Below are positions 11,911 through 56,605 of a stretch of DNA of 64,000 bases, piece by piece. How positions within the stretch are numbered: the stretch's first letter is position 1; the number at the start of each line of letters is the position of its first letter. A model generated the notes under the pieces. It ran no database searches. It saw nothing but the letters and a program-made list of their open reading frames with translations, and was not told the DNA's origin. Origin of the DNA: Glutamicibacter soli (lineage in GTDB: Bacteria > Actinomycetota > Actinomycetes > Actinomycetales > Micrococcaceae). The stretch is from contig NZ_POAF01000001.1 of NCBI RefSeq assembly GCF_003309065.1, forward strand, positions 434,001 through 498,000, read 5' to 3'. A program made the position numbers and the translations under genes.

Positions 11911-12951
11911 CTAGTTGTCCGGCAGCGGTTCCAAGTGCAGCATAATGTCGGGGCCGAGCCGGGCCAGCGTTTCGCCGCTGAAGGCGTCGATCCGGTAGGC
12001 GCGCGCGTCACTCAGGGTGCGGGTGGCGGCGATGTTCACCGAACAGTCCCCGGCGCCAATGATGACCGGTGCCTGGTAGCAGTAGATCTCGTCCGCGAGG
12101 TCGGCGGCGATGAAGGCCGAGGCGACGGTGGCGCCGCCCTCGATCAGCAGGTGCCCGTAGCCCAGCTCGCTCGCGCGGGCGATCAGCTCGTGCACCTCGC
12201 GGGTGCGCACCTGTTCCCAGTGCTCGTCGAAGGCCAGGGCCAGGGTTCCGGGCAGTTCACGGCGGCCCATGACCAGCCGGTGCGGCTGGCGCGGCAGCGC
12301 GGTGCCGTCGGCGGCGCGGGCGTTCAGCCGCGGGTCGTCGTGCACCACGGTGTTGGTGCCGACCACGATCGCGTCCACCCGGGCGCGCAGCGCGTGGGCG
12401 TGCGCCCGGGACTGCGCTGAGGTGATCCACTGGCTGGTGCCGTCCGGAGCGTTGATGCGCCCGTCCAGGGACTGGGCGGTCTTGACCGTGATGAACGGGC
12501 GGCCCTGTTCCTTGGCGCGGATCCAGCGGTGGTTCAGCTCGCGGATCGCGGAGGCCTCGCGCGCCTGGCTGACCTTCACGCCGGCGGCGGAAAGGTAGTC
12601 CGCTCCCCCGCTGGCGGCGGTGTCGTCGGCCTGCCCGTAGTGCACCGCGCCGAGGCCCGCCTGGGCGATGGCCGCCGCGCAGGGACCGGTGCGCCCGGTG
12701 TGGTTGCACGGCTCCAGGGTGACGACCATGGTCAGCGTGGCGGCGCGTTCGCGGGAGATCCGGCCCAGGCGGCGCAGCGCGTCGATCTCCGCGTGCGGGC
12801 TGCCGGCGCCCTGGTGGTAGCCGGTGGCGATCAGCGAACCGTTCTCGTCCAGGATGCAGGCGCCGACCAGCGGGTTGGCGCCGCGGTGTCCCCGGCGGGC
12901 GGTTTCCAGCGCGGTTTCAAGTGCCGCGTCGAGCTGCTGTTCGGTGGCCAT
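11911..12951 (-). CDS. ribD: Bifunctional riboflavin deaminase / reductase
   Basis: The 346-residue enzyme performs the second and third pyrimidine steps of riboflavin synthesis. The deaminase domain (about residues 1-145) has zinc ligands in PHAEIDAL and [12 protein letters not shown]. The reductase domain (about 150-346) has [28 protein letters not shown] and [13 protein letters not shown]. The start ATG at 12951 lies five bases after the stop of the transporter gene. Both halves look complete. Confidence 0.95.
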
Positions 12952-12956
12952 GGCGG

Positions 12957-13658
12957 TTACCGCTTGGACTGCAGGGTCGGGTCGGGCAGCTCGGTTTCCA
13001 CCGCCGGCTTGTCGCCCTTCTTGGCCCGGGCCCAGACGAAGAAGCCGATCAGCGTGAAGGCGCCGTAGAACAGGTACATGAACGCGCTGGCGTAGTAGCC
13101 GGCGGAGAACAGCAGCGGCACGCCGACCGCGTCGACCGCGACCCAGATCAGCCAGAACTCGACCCAGCCCTTGGCCATGCCGAAGGTCGCCAGCAGCGAT
13201 CCGACGAAGGTCCACGCGTCGGCCCAGACCGGCTCGTAGGAGCCGAGGATGCGGAACAGCGGGGTGAGCGCCACGGTGCCCAGCACCAGCGTGGCGGCCA
13301 GGCCCAGGCGGATCTTGTTCGAGGCCCAGACGGGGGTGACGGCGCTGCCGCTGCCGTCGCGGGCCTGCTTCCAGCGGTACCAGCCGAAGATCGAGACCGA
13401 GATGAACATGATCTGGCGGCCAGCCTGGCCCCAGAGGTTCGCGGCGTAGTCGGTGTCGAACAGGCTGCCGAGGAATACTGTCAGCAGCAGCAGGTTGCCG
13501 ACGATGCCGACCGGCCAGGCCCAGACCTTGCGGCGCATGCCGCCCACGGCGCTGGCCAAGCCGAAGATGTTGCCGACAACCTCGCGCACCAGCAGTGCCG
13601 AGGAACCTACCGCAATTTGTGAATTAAAAGCTTCAATGAGCCACCGCAGGAAATCCAT
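12957..13658 (-). CDS. ribM: PnuC-family vitamin transporter, probable riboflavin importer (RibM/PnuX)
   Basis: The 233-residue membrane protein has about seven hydrophobic helices and PnuC-family features such as WAWPVGIVGNLLL and FISVSIFGWYRWK. PnuC proteins normally carry nicotinamide riboside, but actinobacterial members placed directly behind an FMN riboswitch and in front of ribD (RibM or PnuX in Corynebacterium and Streptomyces) import riboflavin by facilitated diffusion. The context here is the same, so riboflavin is the best-supported substrate. Automatic pipelines may name it pnuC. A GGGTGGAAAG stretch precedes the ATG. Confidence 0.88.
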   Translation of the reverse strand: MDFLRWLIEAFNSQIAVGSSALLVREVVGNIFGLASAVGGMRRKVWAWPVGIVGNLLLLTVFLGSLFDTDYAANLWGQAGRQIMFISVSIFGWYRWKQARDGSGSAVTPVWASNKIRLGLAATLVLGTVALTPLFRILGSYEPVWADAWTFVGSLLATFGMAKGWVEFWLIWVAVDAVGVPLLFSAGYYASAFMYLFYGAFTLIGFFVWARAKKGDKPAVETELPDPTLQSKR

Positions 13659-18903: not shown

Positions 18904-18976
18904 GCGGACATAGCTCAGCTGGTAGAGCGCAACCTTGCCAAGGTTGAGGTCGCGAGTTCGAACCTCGTTGTCCGCT
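18904..18976 (+). tRNA. tRNA-Gly (GCC)
   Basis: A full cloverleaf folds: acceptor GCGGACA/TGTCCGC, D arm GCTC/GAGC, anticodon stem CAACC/GGTTG with loop TTGCCAA (anticodon GCC) and T-loop TTCGAAC. The acceptor differs at two positions from the three other Gly copies, with the compensating base kept. CCA is not encoded. First gene of the array. Confidence 0.97.
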
Positions 18977-19029
18977 CGCAAAAAGATGCACCGACTAGGT
19001 AAAACTAGTCGCCTGGCTTCGGCCGGATT

Positions 19030-19101
19030 TGGTGGGGTGGCCGAGAGGCGAGGCAGCGGCCTGCAAAGCCGTATACGCGGGTTCGAATCCCGTCCCCACC
19101 T
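19030..19101 (+). tRNA. tRNA-Cys (GCA)
   Basis: The acceptor GGTGGGG/CCCCACC, anticodon loop CTGCAAA (anticodon GCA) and T-loop TTCGAAT fit tRNA-Cys. It is a single copy in the array, and CCA is not encoded. Confidence 0.95.
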
Positions 19102-19127
19102 CGCAATGAAGATTGCTCATCTTTTTT

Positions 19128-19199
19128 GCGCGATTGGCGCAGCGGTAGCGCGCTTCCCTGACACGGAAGAGGTCACTGGTTCGATCCCAGTATCGCGCA
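19128..19199 (+). tRNA. tRNA-Val (GAC), copy 1
   Basis: Acceptor GCGCGAT/ATCGCGC, anticodon stem CTTCC/GGAAG, loop CTGACAC (anticodon GAC), T-loop TTCGATC. It is identical to the copy at 19374-19445. Confidence 0.96.
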
Positions 19200-19245
19200 C
19201 GGAACTCGTAGTCCACCAGATTACGGATTTCATAACTAAATATAT

Positions 19246-19318
19246 GCGGTCATAGCTCAGCTGGTAGAGCGCAACCTTGCCAAGGTTGAGGTCGCGAGTT
19301 CGAACCTCGTTGACCGCT
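19246..19318 (+). tRNA. tRNA-Gly (GCC), copy 2
   Basis: Same body as the first Gly gene but with acceptor GCGGTCA/TGACCGC. It is identical to the copies at 19468 and 19562. Confidence 0.97.
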
Positions 19319-19373
19319 CCAAGAATTCATCGGTAAAATGATAATTCTGTCGGGATTCTTCATTGAATCTTCG

Positions 19374-19445
19374 GCGCGATTGGCGCAGCGGTAGCGCGCT
19401 TCCCTGACACGGAAGAGGTCACTGGTTCGATCCCAGTATCGCGCA
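19374..19445 (+). tRNA. tRNA-Val (GAC), copy 2
   Basis: Same sequence as the Val copy at 19128-19199. The spacer before it differs from that before copy 1, so the duplication is confined to the gene. Confidence 0.96.
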
Positions 19446-19467
19446 CTGGATACAGTTCAGTGTCCAT

Positions 19468-19540
19468 GCGGTCATAGCTCAGCTGGTAGAGCGCAACCTT
19501 GCCAAGGTTGAGGTCGCGAGTTCGAACCTCGTTGACCGCT
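19468..19540 (+). tRNA. tRNA-Gly (GCC), copy 3
   Basis: Identical in sequence to the Gly gene at 19246-19318, with only 22 nt between it and the preceding Val gene. Confidence 0.97.
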
Positions 19541-19561
19541 CCATAACTTCATATAGATCCT

Positions 19562-19634
19562 GCGGTCATAGCTCAGCTGGTAGAGCGCAACCTTGCCAAG
19601 GTTGAGGTCGCGAGTTCGAACCTCGTTGACCGCT
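19562..19634 (+). tRNA. tRNA-Gly (GCC), copy 4
   Basis: Identical to copies 2 and 3 and 21 nt after copy 3. It is the last gene of the array, directly before a terminator. Confidence 0.97.
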
Positions 19635-19640
19635 CCGAAA

Positions 19641-41326: not shown

Positions 41327-41920
41327 TCAGCCGACGTGCTGCAGGCTGCGGGCCCGGACCAGCCAGCGCCGCCGGTGCTCGGCGTTGAATGGCGCCGCGT
41401 CCGCGCGGACCGCATCGAGCAGCACCTTGCTTTCGGCGCGGATCGAGCGCTGCAGGGCCTCGGGATAGCCCATGCTCAGGCGGTGCTGGTCGAACTCGTC
41501 CTCGTCGTCCAGGAAGGTGCCGCGGCTGTGCGAGCGGATCACGTCGAGGTCCAGGTCGATGGAGTTCACTTCCCAGGCCCCGCGCTTCATCCGCCGCCAG
41601 CCGATGCTGCCGGCCAGGTCGATGTAGATGTCGAAGTCCTCGTCCGGATCGTCGTACAGCGTGGCGATCCACTGGCCTTCGGAGGGGAACAGGCACAGCG
41701 CGTCGCAGGCGGCCAGGTGCGCGGTTCCCGGGCGGGAGACCAGCGATCCGGCCGGCTGGTGCACCCAGTGGCCGTACTCGTCGGAGCCGAGGTAGAAGCC
41801 GGGCACCACCCAGTGCGGGCTGGCGTCGTACTTCCAGGCGCGGGCCACCACCAGCGCGCCGGCGGCGACGCTTGCAGGGTTGCGGGGCAGCCCTTCGGGG
41901 CAGCCGGGCTGGGCGCTCAC
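41327..41920 (-). CDS. DUF402 domain protein
   Basis: The 197-residue protein has the DUF402 pattern: [62 protein letters not shown] and a C-terminal helical segment. Conserved aspartates suggest divalent metal binding. Some DUF402 proteins are nucleoside di-/triphosphatases or RNA-end hydrolases, which would be inference here. The GTG start overlaps the dxs stop as GTGA, so the two genes are coupled. Confidence 0.88.
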
Positions 41921-43884
41921 AGCTTGGGGATCTGTCCGGTGGGCAGGTCCTGGCCGGGCAGCGGCCGGGCGAAGGGGACCTTGGTGCCCAGCACCTGGGC
42001 CAGCGTGTCCCGGGCGACCTGCTGGGCGGTCAGGCCGACGCGCTCCAGCACCTCGGCACGGGTGCCGTGGGCCAGGAACTTGGTGGGCAGGCCCACCTCG
42101 TTCAGCGCGGTGTCCACCCCGGCGGCGCGCATCTCGGTGCGCAGGCGCGAACCGACGCCGCCGGCGCGCACCCCGTCCTCGATGCAGACCACGATGCGGT
42201 GGCGGGCGGCCAGCGAAATCACGGAGGACGGCATGGGCAGCACCCAGCGGGGGTCGACCACCGTCACCGAGACGCCCTGGCTGTTCAGCCGCTGGGCCAC
42301 GTCCAGGGACAGCTCGCTCATCGCTCCGACGGAGACGATCAGCACGTCCGGCGCGGCGCGGTCGCCCAGCCGGGCCAGCACGTCCACGCCGTCGGGCAGC
42401 CGGTCGATGGACTCGACCTCTTCGCCCACGGAGCCCTTGGAGAAGCGCACCACGCTCGGGGCGTCGTTGATGTCCATGGCTTCGCGCAGTTCCTCGCGCA
42501 GGCGGGTGGCGTCGCGCGGGGCCGCCAGGTGCAGGTTCGGGATGATCTGGGTCAGCGCCATGTCCCACATGCCATGGTGGCTGGCGCCGTCCGGGCCGGT
42601 CACGCCGGCGCGGTCAAGCACGATGGTGACCCCTGCCTTGTGCAGCGCGACGTCCATCAGCAGCTGGTCGAAGGCGCGGTTCAGGAAGGTTGCGTAGACG
42701 CACACCACCGGGTGCAGGCCGCCGAAGGCCAGGCCGGCCGCGGTGGTCATCGCATGCTGCTCGGCGATGCCCACGTCCAGCACGCGGTCCGGGTGGGCAT
42801 CGGACATCTTCTTCAGGCCCACCGGCAGCAGCATGGCGCCGGTGATCGCCACAACGTCCTCGCGCTCGTCGGCGATCTTGGCGATCTCGTCGCCGAAGAC
42901 GCTGGTCCAGCTCTGCGCGCTGGGCTTGGCGACCGGGGCGCCGGTGGCAGGGTCGATGACGCCCACCGCGTGGAACTGGTCGGCCTCGTCGGCCAGGGCC
43001 GGCGCGTAGCCGTGGCCCTTCTCGGTCAGCGCGTGCACCAGCACGGGACCGCCGTACTGCTTGGCCTGCTGGAGCGCTTCCTCCACGGCGGCGAGATTGT
43101 GGCCGTCGATCGGGCCGATGTACTTCAGGCCAAGGTCCTCGAAGAGCCCCTGCGGGGCCCACCAGTCCTTGATGCCCTTCTTGGTGGCATGCAGCGACTT
43201 GTAGGTGAAGCTGCCGACCGGGCCGGAATCCTTCAGCCGGCCCTTGAGCTTGTCCATGGCGGACTCGTAGGCGGGGTGGGTGCGGAACTTGTCCAGCTGC
43301 TGGCGCAGTCCCGCGAGCTGGTCGGCCAGGCCGCCGATGGTTGGGGCGTAGGAGCGGCCGTTATCGTTGACCACGATCACCGCCTTGCGTTCCTTGTCAG
43401 CGGCGATGTTGTTCACCGCTTCCCAGACCATGCCGCCGGTCAGCGCGCCGTCGCCCACCAGGCCCACGGCATAGCTTTCGGTGCGGCCGGTCAGCTTATT
43501 GGCCCGGGAGATGCCGTCGATCCAGGACAGCGAGGACGAGGCGTGGGAGGACTCGACGATGTCGTGCTCGGATTCGCCGCGGTCGGGGTAGCCTGACAGG
43601 CCGCCCTGCTGGCGCAGCGTTTCGAAGTTCTGGCGCCCGGTGAGCAGCTTGTGCACGTAGGACTGGTGGCCGGTGTCGAACACGATGGAATCGGTCGGCG
43701 AATCGAACACGCGGTGCATGGCGATGGTCAGTTCCACCACGCCGAGGTTCGGCCCCAGATGGCCGCCGGTGCGGGCGACGTTGTCGATGAGGAAGGCGCG
43801 GATCTCTTGCGCAAGTTGGGTGAGCTGATCCAGGGTAAGCGCCCGCAGGTCGCTTGGTTTTTTAATGGTCTCGAGTAAAGACAC
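41917..43884 (-). CDS. dxs: 1-deoxy-D-xylulose-5-phosphate synthase
   Basis: The 655-residue thiamine-diphosphate enzyme makes DXP from pyruvate and glyceraldehyde 3-phosphate, the first MEP isoprenoid step. It shows [14 protein letters not shown], the ThDP motif [17 protein letters not shown], the transketolase middle [12 protein letters not shown] and the C-terminal LLIVSVGAM-like region. I chose GTG 43884 ([16 protein letters not shown]) because AAGGGG ends 6 nt upstream; an ATG two codons earlier at 43890 abuts that sequence, and one at 43911 is longer than relatives. Confidence 0.96.
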
Positions 43885-44081
43885 AGTCATCCCCTTCACA
43901 TTTCTGCCCATGCGGGCACCGCAAGTCCGTGCGAAACAACTAGTCTATCGCGCACTTGACTGCTCCCATTATCCGCCAACTTTTGGGCTGGAACCAATTT
44001 TTCGATGATGATGTTGGCTACGCCCAGCTTGGCCGCGGTCGCGACGACGGAAAAGAAACTAGAAGCTGTCGAATTTCCCTC

Positions 44082-44110
44082 TTTCCACCCTCGCGCCGCG
44101 TAGGTAAAAT
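44082..44110 (+). promoter_or_regulatory. Candidate promoter of the seven-gene GMC-patatin operon
   Basis: A -35-like TTTCCA (44082-44087) and -10-like TAAAAT (44105-44110) have a 17-nt spacer. They lie about 65 nt before the first gene, whose ATG is preceded by AGGAGG. This is the only promoter-like pair I found in the 291-bp dxs-GMC gap. Confidence 0.5.
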
Positions 44111-44175: not shown

Positions 44176-46656
44176 ATGGGGGAAATTCGTGCCGGCCAAG
44201 TGCCGACGGAATATGTAGATGCAGTTGTGGTCGGTTCGGGGTTCGGCGGTTCGGTGGCAACCTACCGCCTGGCCGACGCCGGCAAGCAAGTGGTCCTGAT
44301 GGAACGCGGCCGGTCATACGGGCCCGGCGATTTCGCCCGCTCTCCGTCGGAGCTGTCCACCGCCTTCTGGGATCCCAGCGAAAAACTCTACGGACTGTTC
44401 GACGCGTGGACCCTGCGGGGCCTCGAGGGGCTGGTCTCCAGCGGCCTGGGCGGCGGCTCGCTGATCTACGCCAACGTGCTGCTGCGCAAGGACGAAAAGT
44501 GGTTCGTCAACGAATCCCCGCTGCCCGGCGGCGGGTACGAATCCTGGCCCATCGGATACCGCGATCTCGAACAGCACTACCAGCGCGTCGAGGACATGAT
44601 CGGGGTGGACCGCTACCCCTACCAGGACACCGCCAAAACCAACGCCTTCGAGCAGGCCGCCCAGGCCGGCGGCCACACGGTGTTCCGTCCCCCGCTGGCG
44701 GTGAGCTTCTCCACCGATGCGGACTCCCCCGCCCAGCCGGGCCGGATGCTGCCCTTGGCGGACTACGGCAACCTCCACGGCAAGCCGCGCACCACCTGCA
44801 CGCTGTGCGGCGAATGCGATCTGGGCTGCAACTCGGGCGCCAAGAACACCCTTGACCACAACTACCTCTCAGCTGCGGCGGCCACCGGCAACGCCGACAT
44901 CCGCACGCTGCACGAGGTGCGCGGCTTCTCCCGCGCGTCGGACGGCAGCTGGCTGGTGCGCTACGTGATCCACGACCCTCAGCACCCCTCCTCAACCGGC
45001 GACCTTCCCGAACGGCTGATCCGCTGCGCCAAGCTGCTGCTGGCCGCCGGCACCTTCGGCACCAGCTACCTGCTGCTGCGCAACCGGATGACCTTGCCCG
45101 GGATCAGCCCGGCGCTGGGCACCCGCTTCAGCAGCAACGGAGACCTGCTCGGACTGCTGTTCAATGCCAGCGAGCAGGTCGAAGGGCGCACCGTGCCGCG
45201 CCAGCTGTACGGGAACCGCGGTCCGGTCATCACCAGCACCGTGCGCGTCGCGGACGCGCTGGACGGCAACGGCGCCACCGGCCGCGGCTACTACCTGCAG
45301 GACGCCGGCTATCCGGCGTTCTTCAACTGGCTCATGGAACTCTCGCAGTTCCGCGAGGCTCTGCCCCGGGCCGGCAAGGTGGCCGCCAAGATCATCGAGA
45401 ACCGGCTGTTCCAGCGAAATCGCAGCAGCATATCTGCCGATCTGGCCATGGCGCTGGGCCCTGGACGCTTTTCCAGCACGGCGCTGCCCCTGCTGGGCAT
45501 GGGCCGGGACGTGCCCGACGGGCGCATGTACCTGCGCGAGGGCCGGCTGGCAGCCGACTGGACGCTGTCCACCTCGCAGGAGTTCTTCGAATCCGTGCGC
45601 GGTGCCATGCGCGGCATCGGCGACCAACTGGGTGCTGCTTTCAACGACAACCCGCTGTGGAAGGCCCAGCGTGTGGTCACGGTGCATCCGCTGGGCGGGG
45701 CGCCGATCGGCGCCAACGACCAGGTCGGCGTCTGCGACCCGTGGTCGGAGGTGTACGGCCAGCCGGGCCTGTACGTGGTGGACGGCGCCGCCATGCCCGG
45801 CCCGGTCGGCCCGAATCCGTCGCTGACCATCGCCGCGATGGCGGACCGGGCCTGCGAGCACCTGCTCGAGCAGTCGTGGGCCTCCCCCGTCGTCGCGGCC
45901 GGATCTTCCCTAGCCGGTGCGGCGCCGGAGGGCGGACCTGTTGACGCGCATACCGCGCAGGACCCGGCCGCCCCGGTCGAGCCACTGAATCCCCGGGCCA
46001 CCTCGGTGGCGTTCACCGAAACCATGCGCGGGCATTTCACGCTGGGCGTGGGCGAGCCGGCCTCGGGCCTGGCACAGGCCTCGCTGCGCCACGAACGCAT
46101 GATGTTCACCCTGACCATCACGGCCAAGGACATCGACCGCTTCACCGCCGATCCGCGCCACCCGGCGAGCGCCGAGGGCTTCCTCGACGCGGATGTGCTC
46201 GGCGGGCACTGCCCGGTGCTACGCGGCTGGTTCAACCTGTTCGTGCCGGATGAACAGGAACGCCGGCTGATGCTCTACCGCCTGCATGTCCAGTCCCCGG
46301 GCGGGCGGCAGCTGACCATGGTGGGTTTCAAGGACATCCATGACGGGCCGGGCGTGGACCTCTGGCCGGATACCACAACCCTGTTCGTGCAGCTGCTGGA
46401 AGGCCACGTCTTCCCGCCGGCACCGGAACACCCTGCGGCCTCCGGGCTGCTGGCGGCCGAGGACCCGGCGGTGCTGGGATCCGGCATCCTGTATATCGAG
46501 CCGCTGGACTTCGCGCGCCAGCTCACGACCTTCAGGGCGCAGGGGCCGCGCAAGGTCCAGGCGCTGTCGGCCTTTGGCGGGCTGTTCCTGGGGTCGCTGT
46601 ACCGCAGCTACCTTGCGCCGCGCCGTGTCCGGAAGAACGATCATGAATCAGCATGA
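44176..46656 (+). CDS. GMC-family flavoprotein oxidase/dehydrogenase, cholesterol-oxidase-like, with extra C-terminal domain
   Basis: The 826-residue protein has the FAD loop VVGSGFGGSVAT at residues 18-29, the GMC signature SSGLGGGSLIYANV at 88-101, and the catalytic His504 in HPLGGAP and Asn547 in PNPSLTIAAM. Residues 208-218 hold a CxxCxxCxxxC cluster (CTLCGECDLGC), as in ChoD-type proteins, where an iron-sulfur site has been proposed. The core ends near residue 567. After a disordered linker a second domain of about 220 residues (about 605-826) follows, with FTETMRGHFTLG and LHVQSPGG-RQLTMVGFKDIHDG; I do not know its function. The likely activity is oxidation of a sterol or other alcohol. 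It is gene 1 of 7 in an overlapping operon. Confidence 0.88.
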   Translation: MGEIRAGQVPTEYVDAVVVGSGFGGSVATYRLADAGKQVVLMERGRSYGPGDFARSPSELSTAFWDPSEKLYGLFDAWTLRGLEGLVSSGLGGGSLIYANVLLRKDEKWFVNESPLPGGGYESWPIGYRDLEQHYQRVEDMIGVDRYPYQDTAKTNAFEQAAQAGGHTVFRPPLAVSFSTDADSPAQPGRMLPLADYGNLHGKPRTTCTLCGECDLGCNSGAKNTLDHNYLSAAAATGNADIRTLHEVRGFSRASDGSWLVRYVIHDPQHPSSTGDLPERLIRCAKLLLAAGTFGTSYLLLRNRMTLPGISPALGTRFSSNGDLLGLLFNASEQVEGRTVPRQLYGNRGPVITSTVRVADALDGNGATGRGYYLQDAGYPAFFNWLMELSQFREALPRAGKVAAKIIENRLFQRNRSSISADLAMALGPGRFSSTALPLLGMGRDVPDGRMYLREGRLAADWTLSTSQEFFESVRGAMRGIGDQLGAAFNDNPLWKAQRVVTVHPLGGAPIGANDQVGVCDPWSEVYGQPGLYVVDGAAMPGPVGPNPSLTIAAMADRACEHLLEQSWASPVVAAGSSLAGAAPEGGPVDAHTAQDPAAPVEPLNPRATSVAFTETMRGHFTLGVGEPASGLAQASLRHERMMFTLTITAKDIDRFTADPRHPASAEGFLDADVLGGHCPVLRGWFNLFVPDEQERRLMLYRLHVQSPGGRQLTMVGFKDIHDGPGVDLWPDTTTLFVQLLEGHVFPPAPEHPAASGLLAAEDPAVLGSGILYIEPLDFARQLTTFRAQGPRKVQALSAFGGLFLGSLYRSYLAPRRVRKNDHESA

Positions 46657-48544
46657 GTTGGAGCAGTTCGAGCATGAACTGGGGTTCCGCCCGCGGCCGG
46701 CGGCGCGCTGGCTGTCCCCGCCCGAGCTGGTGCGCACCGGAATCAAGGCGCTGGCCGCCCAGGTCTTCCTGGGGTTCATGGACAACCGGGAGATGCAGAG
46801 CATTTTCCCGCAGCGAGCCATGGACCTGGCCGAATTCCCGCCGCAGGAGCAGGGCCGCTGGATCGACTTCATCGCGGATCTCGGCGATGGTTTCGACGCG
46901 ACCTACACCATGGCCTGGGCGCTGGCCCAGCCCGAGCTGCAGGTCCAGGCCGCGCAGCCCGGCCAGCCGCCGGTAAGGCTGCCCAAGTCGCAGCTGCTGG
47001 TCATGGGCGGGGACGAGGTCTACCCGGCGGCCTCCGAACGCGCCTACGAGGACCGGCTGGTGCGACCCTACCGTGCCGCTTCGCTTCCGGGGCCGGCGGC
47101 CGCGCTGCTGGCCCTGCCCGGGAACCACGACTGGTACGACGGGCTGACGGCCTTCGAACGCATCTTCTGCCAGCAGGCGAAGATCGGCGGGTGGCAGACC
47201 CTGCAGTCCCGTGGCTACTTCGCCGCGCGGCTGACCAACCTGGAAGCCAACACGGTGCAGAAGACCTGGTGGCTGGTCGCGCTGGACAGCGAGCTGGGCA
47301 GCTACATCGACCGGCCGCAGCTGCAGTACTTCGAGGCGGAGGTGACGCGGCACCTGAAGCCGGGCGATGCGATCATCCTGTGCGCCTCCTCCCCCACTTG
47401 GGAGGCCACCGGCACGTTGCCGGACGGCGACCCGAACGCGAACAACGCGTTGCGCTACTTCGAGAACCACTACCTGCTGCAGTGCACGGACCCGGCGACC
47501 GGGGAATCGACGCCTACCGGGGCGCAGATCCGGGTGCGGCTGAGCGGGGACAAGCACCACTACGCACGCTACGCCCAGCTGCACGAGCAGGCCGGACCCG
47601 AGGACCCGCGCCGCGAGCAGCTGCTGACCTGCGGCCTGGGTGGCGCCTTCCTTTCGGGTGCCCGGCACCTGTCGCCCGAGCTGCTGTTGCCGCCCACCGG
47701 TTCGCGGGAGATGGTGAATCCGGCTGAGCGCCAGCGGTATGCGCTGGCCGAGACCGTGTTCCCGACCCCGACGCAGGAGCGGGCGCTGCACTGGCAGCTG
47801 GCCAACCCGTTCAGCGCGTTTTTCCTGCCTTGGCGCAACCCCTGGTTCAGTACCGGGCTGGGCGTGGTGCACCTGGCCTGCTTCATGTTCTTGTGCACCG
47901 TCTTCTCCGGAATCACCGGCGACTCGTATCCCGAGGCGCTGGGTTCGGGCGACTGGGTCCACGCCGTGGGCATCGTGGTGTTCCTGTTCGTGGTGCCGCT
48001 GCTGATCGCCCTGCTGCTGTGGCTGGCGCGCAATGCCCGGGGGCTGTTCCAGGACGGGTCTGAGGCCTCCGGGAAATCCAATCCGATGGTGCAGCCGCTG
48101 CTGATCGTGGGCCTGCAGCTGTTGTTGGCCTCGGCCATTTTCACCGGGCTCATCGCCCTGCCCTGGCAGCGGAACTGGAGCGCAGGGTGGATCACCGTGC
48201 TGCTGGCGGCGGTCTACGCCACGGTGCTGGGCGCCGCCGTAGGCACGATGGTCTTCGCCCTGCACCTGGTGTTCGCCCCGCCCGGGGCTGTGGGCAGGTT
48301 GAAAATGACGGCGCTGGCCTACGAGGACGGCAAGGGCTTCTTGCGGATGCACCTGCGCGACGACGGCACCTTGGTGATCTACCCGGTGATTGCCGATACC
48401 GTCGTCCACGACTGGGATACCGGACCCAGCACCCAGAACCAGATGCGCCCGGTGCCCGCCGACGGGCTGCCGCCGCTGCGGCTACTGGAAAACCCGATCA
48501 CCGTGAGCATCAACGGCTTCAGCACCCCGGGAGGTGTCCAATGA
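46643..48544 (+). CDS. Metallophosphoesterase with C-terminal membrane helices
   Basis: The 633-residue protein combines a calcineurin-like phosphoesterase domain (about 70-370) with four predicted helices (about 408-430, 445-470, 490-515 and 520-545) and a soluble C-terminal tail. Motifs visible are DFIADLGDGFD, VMGGDEVYP, LPGNHDWYDG and SGDKHHYARY, the last giving the GDxHH metal site. The usual DxH opening is replaced by D-L-GDGFD, so metal ligation may differ from the family norm. Its ATG lies 14 nt inside the GMC gene. A phosphate ester of the same substrate, or a phospholipid, is a possible target; this is inference. Confidence 0.85.
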   Translation: MNQHELEQFEHELGFRPRPAARWLSPPELVRTGIKALAAQVFLGFMDNREMQSIFPQRAMDLAEFPPQEQGRWIDFIADLGDGFDATYTMAWALAQPELQVQAAQPGQPPVRLPKSQLLVMGGDEVYPAASERAYEDRLVRPYRAASLPGPAAALLALPGNHDWYDGLTAFERIFCQQAKIGGWQTLQSRGYFAARLTNLEANTVQKTWWLVALDSELGSYIDRPQLQYFEAEVTRHLKPGDAIILCASSPTWEATGTLPDGDPNANNALRYFENHYLLQCTDPATGESTPTGAQIRVRLSGDKHHYARYAQLHEQAGPEDPRREQLLTCGLGGAFLSGARHLSPELLLPPTGSREMVNPAERQRYALAETVFPTPTQERALHWQLANPFSAFFLPWRNPWFSTGLGVVHLACFMFLCTVFSGITGDSYPEALGSGDWVHAVGIVVFLFVVPLLIALLLWLARNARGLFQDGSEASGKSNPMVQPLLIVGLQLLLASAIFTGLIALPWQRNWSAGWITVLLAAVYATVLGAAVGTMVFALHLVFAPPGAVGRLKMTALAYEDGKGFLRMHLRDDGTLVIYPVIADTVVHDWDTGPSTQNQMRPVPADGLPPLRLLENPITVSINGFSTPGGVQ

Positions 48545-49593
48545 CCACCATGCAGACAACCCGCGCCGATCATGCGACCGAGGTGGTGCAGTTCCGCGCC
48601 GACGACGGGCTGCCGCTGACACTGGTGCATGTCGCCTCGCGGCGCCGCCCGGACGCCCCGCGCGGGCCGGTGCTGCTGGTGCACGGGGCCGGGGTGCGCG
48701 CCGAGCTGTTCCGCCCGCCGATCGCGCGCACCCTGGTGGACGCCCTGCTGGATGAGGGCTGGGACGTGTGGATGCTGAACTGGCGTGCGTCCATCGACCT
48801 GCCGCCGGTGGCCTGGACGCTGGACGACGCGGCGGTGTTCGACCATCCTGCGGCGGTGCGCGAGGTGCTGGCGCGCACCGGGGCGGATTCGCTGGCCGCG
48901 TTCGTGCACTGCCAGGGCTCGACCTCCTTCACCATGGCCGCGGTGGCAGGGCTGCTGCCGCAGGTGCGCACCATCGTCTCCAACGCCTGTTCGCTGTTCG
49001 TGGATGTCCCGTGGGTATCCCGGCAGAAAATCACCCACCTGCTGCCGCTGCTGGGCGGGTTCACCCCGATGCTCTCCCCGCGCTGGGGCTACAAGTCCCA
49101 GGGCTACTTCTCGCGCATCGTGCGTTCGGGGGTGAAGCTGACCCACCACGAATGCGACAACACCGTGTGCCGGCTGGTGTCCTTCACCTACGGGGCGGGG
49201 CATCCGGCCCTGTGGTCCCACGCGAACCTGGACGATGCCACGCACCGCTGGATCATCGGGGAGTTCGCCGGCGCCCCGCTGTCTTTCTTCCGCCAGATGG
49301 CCGGGTGCGTGAAGGCCGGATACCTGGTGCCCACCGGGCAGCACAGCCAGCTTCCCGACTCGCTGGTGGACGGGCCGCCGCGCACCGAGGCACGGTTCTC
49401 CTTTATCGCCGGGGCGGACAACCGGTGCTTCCTGCCACAGGGGCAACGGCGCACCTACGAATTCTTCGACTATTACGCCCCCGGGGAGCATTCGCTGCAC
49501 GTGATTCCCGGCTACGGACATCTGGATCTTATTTTCGGCAGGGATGCCTGGCGCGACAGCTATCCCTTGATCCTTCAGGAGCTTGCATCATGA
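48541..49593 (+). CDS. Alpha/beta hydrolase of the GMC operon
   Basis: The 350-residue protein has the fold elements: LLVHGAGVRAELFRPP as oxyanion strand, WDVWMLNWRASIDLPP, the nucleophile elbow HCQGSTSF (CQGST, a C-x-G-S variant of GxSxG), a GADNRCFLP acid strand and the terminal GYGHLD with the catalytic His. Large fused GMC-hydrolase proteins exist in other bacteria, so a joint action with the GMC enzyme is plausible. ATGA overlap with the phosphoesterase gene gives coupling. No signal peptide is seen. Confidence 0.85.
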   Translation: MTTMQTTRADHATEVVQFRADDGLPLTLVHVASRRRPDAPRGPVLLVHGAGVRAELFRPPIARTLVDALLDEGWDVWMLNWRASIDLPPVAWTLDDAAVFDHPAAVREVLARTGADSLAAFVHCQGSTSFTMAAVAGLLPQVRTIVSNACSLFVDVPWVSRQKITHLLPLLGGFTPMLSPRWGYKSQGYFSRIVRSGVKLTHHECDNTVCRLVSFTYGAGHPALWSHANLDDATHRWIIGEFAGAPLSFFRQMAGCVKAGYLVPTGQHSQLPDSLVDGPPRTEARFSFIAGADNRCFLPQGQRRTYEFFDYYAPGEHSLHVIPGYGHLDLIFGRDAWRDSYPLILQELAS

Positions 49594-50516
49594 ATCTGCT
49601 ACCCCCGCTGCGCTCGGCGCTGCGCCTGCTGCCCTCGGCACTGCCGGCTCGGCAGCGGCAACTGTCCGGGCAGAAGGCCACCGTGGACGGCATCAGCTAC
49701 CTGCTGCCGGTCAATTCCGAACCCTCGCCGGTGCTGATGACCGCGTTTCCCATTGACGCCCGTGCCGCCGCGAAGCTGATCCCGGGCGAAGAGCTGCATC
49801 CGTTCAGGCTGCCAGGCGGACGCTCGCTGCTGGTGGTCACCGTGATCAACTACCTTGCCACGGACATCGGCGCCTACATCGAATACTCGCTGGCGCTGGC
49901 TGTCACCCGTGGCATGCGCCCGGCACCGCCGCTGCTGCCCATGCTGTTCCAGAAAACCCTGAACCTGGGGCAGTACGTGGTGGATTTGCCGGTGAGCACT
50001 GAAATTTCGGTCAAGGGCGGCAAGGGGATCTGGGGCATGCCGAAGCACCAGGCCAGCTTGGACTTCAAGGTGACGGAGCAGACGGTGTCCAGCGCCTATG
50101 AGCTGGACGGGGTGAAGGGCGCGCTGGTGGAGATCGAGCGCCCGGCGCCCACCGCGCTGCCGATCAAGGTCGGCGCGGTGAACTACTGCTCGTTCCGCGG
50201 CATGCTCTACAAGTCGAGCATCTACTTCCAGGGCACCGCCGACGTGTCGATCGGCCGGCAGGCCAAGGCGCGGCTGGAGTTCGGCGACCTGCCGCAGGTG
50301 GCAGGACTGGCGGGACTGGATTTCGACCCGCAGCCGGTGTTCACCCTGTATATTCCCGATTCCCACGGGGTGCTCGATGACCACTACGAGGCGTGGTTCC
50401 AGTACGGCCGGGACCGCGCCCCCTACGGCGGGGACGGCATGGATTCGGTGGTCGGGCTGGGGTTGGGCGAAGAATGGCCCGATCCGCCGCGGCGGGGCGA
50501 AAGCCGCGTCCAATGA
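49590..50516 (+). CDS. Acetoacetate decarboxylase-superfamily protein
   Basis: The 308-residue protein matches the ADC fold: KGIWGMPKHQASLDF near residue 150 corresponds to the conserved G-x-PK-x-A region, followed by a beta-rich barrel. In acetoacetate decarboxylase a catalytic Lys pair sits in an EFPKK-type segment; here the Lys in MPKH is one candidate, and I do not see a second adjacent Lys. It may be a decarboxylase, aldolase or non-catalytic binding member. ATGA overlaps with both neighbours place it in the operon. Confidence 0.78.
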   Translation: MNLLPPLRSALRLLPSALPARQRQLSGQKATVDGISYLLPVNSEPSPVLMTAFPIDARAAAKLIPGEELHPFRLPGGRSLLVVTVINYLATDIGAYIEYSLALAVTRGMRPAPPLLPMLFQKTLNLGQYVVDLPVSTEISVKGGKGIWGMPKHQASLDFKVTEQTVSSAYELDGVKGALVEIERPAPTALPIKVGAVNYCSFRGMLYKSSIYFQGTADVSIGRQAKARLEFGDLPQVAGLAGLDFDPQPVFTLYIPDSHGVLDDHYEAWFQYGRDRAPYGGDGMDSVVGLGLGEEWPDPPRRGESRVQ

Positions 50517-51010
50517 GTACTGCCCTGGCTTGGACCGCACTGATTTCGGCACTGGTGACGATCTTCGGCGCATCGTTGTATCTCGGATTCATGACGGTGG
50601 CGCAGTTCTTCCTGCGCCCGGTATTCCTCGGCTTGCGGCTCGATGAGCTGTCAACGGTCTTCGCCGTGCCCATCACTGCAATCACCCGCTTTCTGGGGAT
50701 CATGTTCCTTCCCTTGTTGGTCGCCCCGCTGATCCAAATATGGCTGGGACGCACCCACGTGTGGACGCTGGTATTCTCTATCGCCGCCGCCGCGTCGTAC
50801 ATTTTCCTGGCCTTGTGGTACGCACTGTCCATGCGTCCGGTTAACCAGCAGCTGCTCACTGGCGCGGTGTCCGAAGAGCCGGAGTTGCGTGCCAAGATGC
50901 ACCAGTGGGTCTCGCGCAACTGGGCGAGATTCTATGCAGCACTGATTTACTGGGCGGCCGCGGTCGGCTATCTGCTGGCAGGCCATGAACTGTGGGAGGC
51001 ACTGCCATGA
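50513..51010 (+). CDS. Four-helix membrane protein, DUF1772-like
   Basis: The 165-residue protein has four predicted helices (about 8-33, 50-74, 84-106 and 140-158). A RPVNQQLL motif after helix 3, followed by W-x5-W-x2-F, recalls DUF1772/anthrone-oxygenase-like proteins, which act on polyketide anthrones in some organisms. That assignment is weak. ATGA overlaps at both ends tie it to the decarboxylase-like gene and to the next membrane gene. Confidence 0.7.
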   Translation: MSTALAWTALISALVTIFGASLYLGFMTVAQFFLRPVFLGLRLDELSTVFAVPITAITRFLGIMFLPLLVAPLIQIWLGRTHVWTLVFSIAAAASYIFLALWYALSMRPVNQQLLTGAVSEEPELRAKMHQWVSRNWARFYAALIYWAAAVGYLLAGHELWEALP

Positions 51011-51432
51011 AATGCACACACGTCGAATCCGGCCCCGCGTCCATGCTGGCTCGCGCGGCACTGGGGATCGGAGCGGTGACAGTGGTGTCCGGCGCAAGCC
51101 AGGCAGCAGCTCCGGGACTCGTGCTGAAGCTCGTGGGAGCCGAGAATTCGCCGGCGACCCGCCAGCTGTTCGGCACGGTCGGCATGTTCATGACGATCAC
51201 CGGCGGGCTGTTGACCCACTCGATGCTCTGCCGCCAGTCGATGCGCCTGGCGCTGTTCTGGTCGGTGCTGCAGAAGGCCGGCGCGGTCGGCGCGGTCGCG
51301 ATCGGGGTGCGCCGCGGCGTGTTCGCCCGCCGGGCGCTGGCCGTCGCGGCGTTCGACCTGCTCTCGGCCGCGGTGCTGGCCGCCGGCCTGGGCGCAACAA
51401 AGCTCCCGAAACATGAACGGTCGCAACGGTGA
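51007..51432 (+). CDS. Small hydrophobic membrane protein of the GMC operon
   Basis: The 141-residue protein has about four hydrophobic segments (about 17-36, 56-77, 84-104 and 109-131) and a basic C-terminus (KLPKHERSQR). I do not recognise a family. Its ATG overlaps the preceding stop (ATGA) and its stop overlaps the patatin GTG (GTGA), so it is the sixth of seven coupled genes. A role as membrane partner of the other enzymes is inference. Confidence 0.75.
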   Translation: MKCTHVESGPASMLARAALGIGAVTVVSGASQAAAPGLVLKLVGAENSPATRQLFGTVGMFMTITGGLLTHSMLCRQSMRLALFWSVLQKAGAVGAVAIGVRRGVFARRALAVAAFDLLSAAVLAAGLGATKLPKHERSQR

Positions 51433-52733
51433 AACGCTCGCTGGTGCTCGCCGGAGGCGGCATGCGCGTGGCCTGGCAGGCTGGTGTGCTGAAGGCCCTA
51501 GAGGAAGCCGACCTGGAATTCACCCACGTGGACGGGACCTCCGGCGGAATCCTGAACACCGCCATGATGCTCTCCGGCCAGGATGCCGACCAGATGATGA
51601 AGCGCTGGGCCTCGGTGAAGGTCTCCCAATTCTCCTCGCCGCTGCCGCTGCGCGACTACCTGCGGGGGCCATGGAACCTGCCGGCGCTTTCCGGCCCCGA
51701 AGCCATGGTGACGAAGCTCTTCCCCTCCATGGGGGTGGATGTGGACGCCATCCGGAAAAGCAAAATTCCCGGGACGTTCAACATCGCGAACTTCACCGAG
51801 AAGCGCAGCATCGCGGTCTCATCCAAAGACGTGGACCCGCAGCTGCTGGCGGCGGGCATGAGCTTGCCGATTTTCACCGCGCCGCTGTATCGCGACGGGG
51901 CCACCTGGACCGATGCGGCGTGGATCCGGGATGCGAATATCACCGCTGCGCTGGATCATGGCGCCAGGGAAATCTGGCTGCTCTGGTGCGTGGGCAACTC
52001 CCCGTACTGGGGCAAAGGCCCGCTGGAACAGTATGTGCACATGATCGAGATGAGCGCCACCGGCGGATTGCTCGCTGATTTCGAGCAGGCCAAGGCCGCC
52101 GGACGTGAATTCGTCCTGCATGTCATCAAACCGGAGCATCCGCTGCCGCTGGACCCGGTCTTCTATCTGGGGCGGATCAGCGCGTCCACGCTGATGTCCA
52201 TGGGCTACCGGGACGCGGTCGCCTATCTTGAGCGGTCTCGGCCGGAAGGGGTTCGGGCCGATTACCGATGCACCGCCATGACCGATGGGCCGGTTGGCGT
52301 CAGTTGGAGCGAGCGCCTTTCCGGGCATGGGTTCGGGCTGAACTTGACCGTGTGGCTGCCGCTGGATGATGCGGTACCCGGAGCAGTCACCGGTTTCCTC
52401 GCCAAGCGGCGCGTGAAACACCTGGTTCCGTTGGCCGACGGCAGCATCGTGCGCACCGCCAGCAGCTGGGAGTACCGGGCGCGGGCCCGGATCGATGGCG
52501 ACTGGGTGCCAGTGGCCATCCGCCGCGAAGTTCCTGCCGGGGAATCGATCTTCGACCAGCTCCCCCGGGCCGAGGCCGACATCGGCACCCAGCACCCGAA
52601 CCTGCGGATGGGATTGTGCGGACGGATCCGCATGCTCATCTCGCTGGAGCCCTTCGGTGCCCACGGACTTCGACAGCGCATCTTCGCCGCCAGGGACGTC
52701 TTGAAGATGCTGCGCACCGCACGTTCCGGCTAG
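51429..52733 (+). CDS. Patatin-like phospholipase
   Basis: The 434-residue protein has the patatin oxyanion loop AGGGMRVAWQAG at the N-terminus, the nucleophile GTSGG at residues 36-40 (GXSXG) and the Asp of the dyad in YRDGATWTDAAW near residue 155. The catalytic domain ends near 260, and a C-terminal part of about 170 residues contains a second all-beta-like segment (LNLTVWLPLDDAVPGAV, VKHLVPLADG). It should hydrolyse acyl esters of lipids. GTG start, overlapping the previous stop. It is the last gene of the operon. Confidence 0.88.
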   Translation: MKRSLVLAGGGMRVAWQAGVLKALEEADLEFTHVDGTSGGILNTAMMLSGQDADQMMKRWASVKVSQFSSPLPLRDYLRGPWNLPALSGPEAMVTKLFPSMGVDVDAIRKSKIPGTFNIANFTEKRSIAVSSKDVDPQLLAAGMSLPIFTAPLYRDGATWTDAAWIRDANITAALDHGAREIWLLWCVGNSPYWGKGPLEQYVHMIEMSATGGLLADFEQAKAAGREFVLHVIKPEHPLPLDPVFYLGRISASTLMSMGYRDAVAYLERSRPEGVRADYRCTAMTDGPVGVSWSERLSGHGFGLNLTVWLPLDDAVPGAVTGFLAKRRVKHLVPLADGSIVRTASSWEYRARARIDGDWVPVAIRREVPAGESIFDQLPRAEADIGTQHPNLRMGLCGRIRMLISLEPFGAHGLRQRIFAARDVLKMLRTARSG

Positions 52734-52785: not shown

Positions 52786-53676
52786 TCAGCACCCGGCGAG
52801 CTGCAAGGCCCGGCCGAGCATACGATGGCCCTGGGCTTCGAAGTCCTCGGCGCCGAGGCGGTAGGCATAGATGACCGTGCCGATGGCTTCATGCAGGCAT
52901 TCGATCGGCCAGCTGCGTGCCTGCCGCGGGTCTCCGCCGTAACCCTGCAGGAAGGCCGATTCAAGTTCGGGATGCCCCAGCCATTGCTGGTTGGCCAGCC
53001 GCACCAGGTCCGTGGACGGTGCACGGTAGTCGAAACGGCCGAAATCGATGACCTTCAATTTTCCATGGTCGCTTAACCAGTTGCGCGGCTGCCAGTCTCC
53101 GTGGGTTGGTACCAGCCGGACCGGCCGTGGCTGATAGGCCCGCAGGACCTCGTACGCCCGGCGCTCGTTCTCCGGATCGATCCGGTGCTCTTGGCTGAGC
53201 CGTTTAAGGCTCATCGCCAGCAGCTTGGATTCATATGCTGAGTCAAGATGCCCCTCGCCCTGATGCAGGGTTCGCAGGGCGTCTCCAGCTTGCCGGTGGA
53301 ATTCCGGGTCCAGTTCCCGTGCGGTGTGCTCGCTGAGGCCTCCGGGAAGATATTCAAGGATCATGAGCCTGGCCGAGGAATCGGCGAAAAGCAGCGCAGC
53401 GCCGTACCCCGACTCGACCAATGCCGCCGTCGGCCCTTGGTGAGCTGCAAGTTCACGCTCGAAATGATGGTTCGAAGATCCGGCGCTTTTCAGGATGTAG
53501 TCGCTACCCGCCGTGCGCAGGTGCAGGACCAGGGTATCGGTTTCGTGCCAGGAAAGGTCGGCGGTCATGGTGCAGCCCGGAAGCCAGCGTTCGACAGCAT
53601 CGAGTTGTGCGGGATCAAGGAATTGATCAAGAAGGAGTTTTCGAGTCGTCATCTCGCGCATCGCTGTTTTCATCAT
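52786..53676 (-). CDS. APH-family small-molecule kinase
   Basis: The 296-residue protein has the kinase-like core: ATP-site Lys in DYILKSAG, then VPTHGDWQPRNWL (HGDxxxxN, catalytic Asp and Asn) and KVIDFGRFDYR (DFG-like). Such proteins include aminoglycoside, homoserine and choline kinases. No resistance function can be assigned. Two adjacent ATGs (53676 and 53673) could start it; the region upstream has no clear ribosome site. It converges with the patatin gene, 52 bp apart. Confidence 0.82.
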   Translation of the reverse strand: MMKTAMREMTTRKLLLDQFLDPAQLDAVERWLPGCTMTADLSWHETDTLVLHLRTAGSDYILKSAGSSNHHFERELAAHQGPTAALVESGYGAALLFADSSARLMILEYLPGGLSEHTARELDPEFHRQAGDALRTLHQGEGHLDSAYESKLLAMSLKRLSQEHRIDPENERRAYEVLRAYQPRPVRLVPTHGDWQPRNWLSDHGKLKVIDFGRFDYRAPSTDLVRLANQQWLGHPELESAFLQGYGGDPRQARSWPIECLHEAIGTVIYAYRLGAEDFEAQGHRMLGRALQLAGC

Positions 53677-53842: not shown

Positions 53843-56551
<2,709 letters not shown>

Positions 56552-56605
56552 GTGGGACTCCTCTCGCCAGACACTCATTCTGTTGCACGCACACACTCGC
56601 ATTCC

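Follow-up and report, generated by a model that had tools for sequence, protein, structure and literature searches.

What joins a sterol-type flavoenzyme, a phosphoesterase, a hydrolase-fold protein, an acetoacetate-decarboxylase-like protein, two small membrane proteins and a patatin in a single bacterial operon, and on what would they act? This question is raised by a locus of Glutamicibacter soli, which we analysed in a window of 64,000 nucleotides (RefSeq assembly GCF_003309065.1, contig NZ_POAF01000001.1, positions 434,001 to 498,000; coordinates are those of the window unless a locus is named). The seven genes lie on the plus strand and encode respectively a cholesterol-oxidase-like GMC flavoprotein (g1, 44176-46656; residues 1-565) with an accessory β-barrel domain at about residues 605-826, a membrane metallophosphoesterase with a purple-acid-phosphatase (PAP) fold, four long helices and C-terminal strands (g2, 46643-48544), an α/β-hydrolase-fold protein with Cys124 at the nucleophile position, His327 and an invariant Asn294 (g3, 48541-49593), an acetoacetate-decarboxylase-like protein with a candidate Schiff-base Lys152 (g4, 49590-50516), a small membrane protein weakly resembling anthrone oxygenase (g5, 50513-51010), a small hydrophobic protein outside any Pfam family (g6, 51007-51432) and a patatin with Ser38, Asp162 and a C-terminal domain related to the one in g1 (g7, 51429-52733). 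A first-pass annotation, made from the letters of the window, had described seven genes on this strand with every junction overlapping, and direct reading of 44176-52733 confirms this exactly: going by the starts and stops, g1 and g2 overlap by 14 nucleotides and the other five junctions by 4, with ATGA at g2/g3, g3/g4, g4/g5 and g5/g6 and GTGA at g6/g7. We find it well supported that the seven genes form one unit. Our leading but still tentative reading is that this unit is a mobile functional one, an enzyme line at the cytoplasmic membrane whose members would all act on a single hydrophobic compound. This would probably be an acyl lipid that either occurs in many bacteria or is encountered outside the cell, rather than an endogenous sterol or carotenoid.

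The evidence for a single unit comes from its recurrence, for which the families were labelled GMC (g1), MPE (g2), ABH (g3), ADC (g4) and PAT (g7), with TM4 and TM3 for the two small membrane proteins (window order ADC-TM4-TM3-PAT). When 297 genomes of the order were searched with g2, 10 of them matched, including that of the window, and full seven-gene sets were read in one genome of the same genus (G218) and in three others (G060, G207, G183). A fifth further set, from the plasmid collection, lies on a megaplasmid of Arthrobacter sp. StoSoilB13, where the phosphoesterase gene (L025, 10001-12032) is in two frames or pieces with a length that is not a multiple of three, and is either broken or affected by a sequencing error. 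The window gene order is retained in all five of these sets, 25 of their 30 junctions are 4-nucleotide overlaps as placed by a start-choosing script that favours adjacency, and outside the genus the proteins are 28-64% identical to those of the window. MPE relatives were also found in G049, G093 and G163, with the rest of the set not found in the stretches read; these three belong to one genus and have two MPE relatives each (L034, L035, L036, L037, L038), the open frames of the second being 741 to 1,050 residues long. The stretch read in G033 yielded no set member, and G225 shows a different set consisting of GMC, then a barrel-bearing patatin, plus an MPE-like gene.

Beyond the order, an ADC profile scan of species genomes recovered 220 relatives, and we analysed the loci of the best 80 of them. 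The families were mapped by profile, and counts were restricted to the 56 loci in which ADC has at least 7 kb on its left and at least 6.5 kb on its right. The partners found near ADC were GMC (54/56), ABH (54/56), patatin (48/56), MPE (47/56), TM3 (47/56) and TM4 (45/56). The same loci comprise 38 GMC-first orders, 16 ABH-first orders and 2 cases of ADC alone; 29 of the 38 GMC-first loci have all seven genes as in the window, and 5 have only GMC-MPE-ABH-ADC. The usual ABH-first order is ABH-ADC-TM4-TM3-PAT, then GMC and mostly MPE, the pair standing in either order, which amounts to the window order with the GMC-MPE block shifted to the opposite end. Rows of the ADC tree fall in nine phyla, namely Actinomycetota (48), Bacteroidota (11), Pseudomonadota (10), Myxococcota (4), Acidobacteriota (2), and Chloroflexota, Rhodothermota, Nitrospirota and Cyanobacteriota (one each), though several rows come from metagenome bins, in which contigs may be misplaced. 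As a control we took 29 ADC-family loci besides the window's from 396 genomes of the phylum: all 6 close ADC relatives have set partners, and all 23 distant ones have none within at most about 1.5 kb on each side. The search for co-occurrence, which asked whether the genes turn up separately, thus left the first-pass idea of a single unit standing, with the same order in five other genomes and partners in 45-54 of 56 loci; judged from this conservation across genomes, the arrangement is beyond chance. Seven loci from Streptomyces, Kitasatospora and Geodermatophilus (L070, L072, L073, L076, L078, L079, L083) have GMC-MPE-ABH-ADC only, the small membrane proteins and patatin not being nearby, unlike in L071. 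Seven loci of Bacteroidota and Proteobacteria (L113 11811-12221, L111 5216-5635 and L086 11753-12154; also L105, L109, L114 and L117) have an eighth gene, absent from the window, which codes for a small membrane protein and lies between TM3 and patatin; both members tested match Pfam DUF4345.

Within the genus there is good support for the operon being an insertion in this lineage, as the first-pass annotation had suspected: g4 is present in 2 of 18 genomes and dxs in 18 of 18, and in all 13 of the 16 g4-less genomes whose dxs upstream region was read, dxs stands without any of the seven genes. The operon had been placed between dxs (41917-43911, minus strand) and acn (53843-56602, minus strand); both do flank it, but an aph-like gene (52786-53676, minus strand) separates g7 from acn, and the exact site is between aph and dxs. 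At the empty sister sites the aph-like gene directly adjoins dxs in 10 of 13 and lies 2 kb off in one, and no aph match was found near dxs in the other 2 of the 13 read. Where seen in sister species, the aph-like gene is 47-55% identical to that of the window and dxs 88-93%, which suggests that the former is fast-evolving or exchanged. The nearest named relative of the window's genome is Glutamicibacter protophormiae JCM 1973, with a g4 that is 96% identical. In the ADC tree, a quick tree in which the window's branch is long and its placement unsure, the window falls outside the group of other Micrococcaceae (97) and next to a broader actinobacterial group (91 and 84 around the window), a position that fits acquisition from outside but lends it no strong support.

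What, then, would the unit do? The GMC part of g1 matches Pfam GMC above cut-off (1.3e-14) and retains His504 and Asn547, which we take to be the active-site His and Asn, in all 64 sequences that have a letter at these positions; the other 8 of the 72 rows have none. It resembles the class I (GMC) cholesterol oxidases (PDB 4u2l, 1b4v; 2.9e-35) in the GMC fold and in the conserved His of HPLGG and Asn of NP, which align. It differs from them in an extra barrel of 220 residues and in falling far under the equivalog cut-off of the NCBIfam model CholsOxChoxAB (5e-56, but 190.3 of 850 bits). No hydrophobic segment of g1 exceeded the cut-off. The barrel, formed by its last 220 residues, is predicted to have eight long strands and C-terminal helices (pLDDT 91, pTM 0.87); its 41 members match no Pfam family save for two single matches at 0.058 and 0.087, and no solved structure stands out in comparison with the model. 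This domain sits on GMC in most actinobacterial loci and in seven from Bacteroidota. In 14 loci of other groups, one of them a Bacteroidota bin (L082), it is carried by patatin instead, and in Nostoc by both proteins. When 40 actinobacterial patatin ends were aligned with 45 GMC ends by hhalign, the result was 96.7% over 157 columns, as against 0.1-1.8% in controls, and on this profile comparison the patatin end in the window's form is evidently a diverged copy of the barrel. Furthermore, a plasmid of Azospirillum oryzae encodes a protein of 1143 residues (WP_149201188.1, annotated as an alpha/beta fold hydrolase), in which counterparts of the window's GMC, barrel and Cys-type ABH are fused in one chain with MPE adjoining; this arrangement differs from that of the window in being a single polypeptide and in lacking any match to ADC, patatin or the small membrane proteins within 17 kb.

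The second gene product reaches Pfam Metallophos at 0.0064, below cut-off, with 15 of 31 family members at E ≤ 0.01 and the best at 2.4e-7. Its predicted model has the purple acid phosphatase fold and contains the four helices that had been proposed for it (400-425, 438-469, 483-505 and 515-544), followed by C-terminal strands (564-621). The seven-ligand PAP signature presumably comprises the motifs DxG, GDxxY, GNH, VxxH and GHxH, and the first three of these are invariant in the family, as are Asp79, Asp124, Tyr127, Asn161 and His305 (31/31). The four membrane helices ahead of the last strands and two altered metal positions set it apart from purple acid phosphatases; with two of seven metal ligands absent, we rejected its assignment as a true member and classed it as PAP-like. 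The ADC-like protein g4 matches Pfam ADC (2.5e-11, 44 versus a 29.8-bit cut-off; PF06314 in 47/47 family members) and resembles that superfamily in its conserved Lys and Glu, Lys152 being present in 80 of 80 loci that were partly picked by this motif; it has PKH in place of the PKK that we assume for acetoacetate decarboxylase, and no PDB sequence matched it even at E 5, nor was an alignment to a solved ADC obtained. The patatin g7 is firmly assigned (Pfam Patatin 2.6e-23, 83.6 versus 27.7 bits) and has a patatin-type Ser-Asp dyad, with Ser38 in all 63 of 64 rows that have a letter there and Asp162 in 64 of 64, the latter being the probable dyad Asp from its DA[AV] context. The position of g6 is conserved across loci; neither it nor three of its relatives matches a Pfam family, g6 matches no NCBIfam model either, and one segment only is over the hydropathy cut-off.

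The hydrolase-fold protein g3 raises the question of whether the operon breaks a lipid down or builds one. It matches Pfam Abhydrolase_1 above cut-off (1.7e-8), and Cys124, His327 and Asn294 are each present in 77 of 77 sequences. It shares the α/β-hydrolase fold with the gastric and lysosomal acid lipases, its strongest PDB relatives (8.8e-11), whose nucleophilic Ser aligns with Cys124; with Cys at this position throughout the family, we rejected an assignment as a serine lipase or esterase. Unlike in the acid lipases and PHA synthase, no acid is conserved at the usual place, where the invariant Asn294 stands by spacing only. With a Cys nucleophile, acyl transfer is as likely as hydrolysis. 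Such a nucleophile is also what we assume for PHA synthase, with which g3 aligns at low probability: weak PHA synthase matches occur in 40 of 47 family members (best 6.9e-6) and a PHA synthase PDB chain is matched at 3.1e-4, whereas the curated score is far from reached (17.9 of 365.3 bits). The small membrane protein g5, which has hydrophobic segments, had been likened to DUF1772; by name its weak Pfam match is instead Anthrone_oxy (0.0092, 16.6 bits), covering the same stretch in all four family members tested. As both g5 and its best relative (L101, 4.8e-6, 27.2 bits) miss the 27.3-bit cut-off, its identification as an anthrone oxygenase was rejected. Taken with the patchy and apparently horizontal distribution, the invariant Cys and these two weak likenesses would suit an operon that builds a lipid-like secondary metabolite or a modified membrane lipid, with g3 as acyltransferase, ADC as aldolase or decarboxylase, and g5 as an oxygenase resembling anthrone oxygenase, while patatin and phosphoesterase would trim the product. 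We consider such a role less likely than our leading reading, though the most serious of the alternatives, given that acid lipases are the strongest relatives of g3 and that no further family recurs as a biosynthetic core, the commonest cluster among the neighbours (clustered, unannotated) being found in 15 of 79 loci, all Micrococcaceae.

If the unit instead degrades or remodels a lipid, a sterol, hopanoid or carotenoid comes to mind, since cholesterol oxidases are closest to g1, and g3 is closest to gastric lipase and lysosomal acid lipase/cholesteryl ester hydrolase; the first-pass annotation had likewise named a sterol or polyprenoid. Of 33 carriers we searched the genomes of 32 (all but L105). 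A squalene-hopene/oxidosqualene cyclase (SHC/OSC) is encoded in 7 of the 32 and a phytoene/squalene synthase (SQS/PSY) in 27, the latter missing from four Arthrobacter and the Sinomonas carrier, which makes cell-made sterols, hopanoids and carotenoids unlikely as the general substrate. KstD gave no match over cut-off in 5 carriers, the best in Cellulomonas (G060) being 9e-8. Together with the distance of g1 from the cholesterol oxidase model, these results leave a pathway of this kind improbable and speak against a substrate of this class made by the cell. The window genome itself has KstD-like genes of up to 570 bits, under the 788 cut-off, which keeps scavenged sterols among the candidates. 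This leaves a lipid that the carriers have in common or encounter.

For the membrane enzyme line that we favour, the description of a membrane-associated oxidise-and-hydrolyse system would be a reasonable guess, and the families suggest, as a best guess, steps in the order ester or acyl, alcohol oxidation and Schiff-base C-C chemistry. Patatin g7, through Ser38 and Asp162, would free an acyl chain, or g3 would transfer one through its Cys nucleophile; the cholesterol-oxidase-like g1 could turn an exposed alcohol into a ketone; and Lys152 of g4 might form a Schiff base with that ketone or a β-keto acid, whereupon a C-C bond would be broken or made (decarboxylation or retro-aldol/aldol). The products of g2, g5 and g6 may anchor the line at the membrane and link it with a substrate or product that is phosphorylated, and the barrel on GMC, patatin or both may dock the common substrate or the partners. 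Consistent with this, in the available part of a report on Roseithermus sacchariphilus RA (PMC7409140), the GMC gene AWN76_007025 rises 1.88-fold and the patatin gene AWN76_007050 2.70-fold on xylan, as sole risers among the eight putative AA enzymes covered there, the other three AA3 GMC genes standing at 0.43-0.60. Another Roseithermus strain (L097) has consecutive GMC, ABH, ADC, TM4, TM3 and patatin genes, an order that the RA tag spacing fits, and the xylan data, as far as that part of the report goes, support common regulation of GMC and patatin. In available parts of two papers (PMC7409140, PMC6087703) the RA patatin is classed as CAZy AA3; this label may stem from the barrel that the L097 patatin (11956-13458) shares with GMC proteins. 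We suggest, again tentatively, an undescribed bacterial lipid pathway spanning nine phyla and having three unusual parts: a membrane-embedded PAP-fold enzyme whose second metal site is reworked, a Cys-His-Asn enzyme of lipase fold, and an uncatalogued migrating barrel that would hold the common substrate while it is first oxidised and then cleaved at a C-C bond in a Lys-dependent step (for instance, a β-hydroxyacyl lipid converted via a β-keto acid to a methyl ketone).

Several points weigh against this reading. At the second metal site of g2, Ala, Pro or Ser replaces the His of VxxH, and Asp303 (in GDxH) the first His of GHxH, so that, with two presumed PAP metal positions missing, g2 may be no phosphatase; likewise, a Cys in the position of the lipase Ser means that g3 may not hydrolyse at all, and ADC families also contain aldolases. 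Parts of the set are dispensable, as 7 of the 80 loci have only GMC-MPE-ABH-ADC, and MPE is missing from several of the 80. Three loci have ADC without any set partner in the stretch (L057, L068 and L095, the last cut close on one side), and four diverged ABH relatives (L167, L168, L169, L171) have no partner in their short loci. The pairwise family distances agree (Pearson 0.81-0.93), but without a species-tree control they add little, and for carriers lacking the cyclase or SQS/PSY, genome completeness is known only for the window's own. Two of the three loci with solitary ADC are from Arthrobacter and lie near carriers in the ADC tree.

Could the genes travel together with no shared pathway, their linkage being due to co-transfer alone? 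The patchy occurrence, the empty sister sites and the position of the window outside the other Micrococcaceae in the ADC tree would suit such a selfish operon, but linkage in nine phyla, the GMC-ABH fusion and the movement of one accessory domain between two partners make it very unlikely. Least probable is an anti-phage or stress defence island, which the patchy distribution and the occurrence of patatins in defence systems might suggest, as none of the seven proteins has a PADLOC match at E ≤ 0.01 and the set is one of metabolic enzymes without a nuclease family.

The first-pass annotation had matched the set to no pathway, and within the literature covered none matching is in print. Searches of open-licence PMC literature under combinations of the family names found no description of the seven-family set, which leaves its absence unproven; what they returned was fungal papers and the two Roseithermus papers, in the parts available. 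Nothing useful was found on the ADC superfamily or on Glutamicibacter operons, and PMC7158056, in its available part, concerns olefins. What is new is the system as a set, the enzyme folds being already known, and the pathway could yet prove a known one run by other enzymes. Where annotated, the set has been noticed piecemeal only. A set whose members stay linked in Actinobacteria, Bacteroidota, Myxococcota, Proteobacteria and a Nostoc bin must serve a useful and general role; identification of its product would give names to seven families together, and for structural study the system supplies unusual variants of enzymes as well as an uncatalogued domain.

Upstream of g1 there is a good ribosome site, AGGAGG, and a possible promoter, TTTCCA-17-TAAAAT (44082-44110, plus strand), which is weak, one such site being found against 1.0 expected by chance. 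Elsewhere in the window, seven consecutive tRNA genes lie at 18904-19636, four for Gly (gcc), two for Val (gac) and one for Cys (gca).

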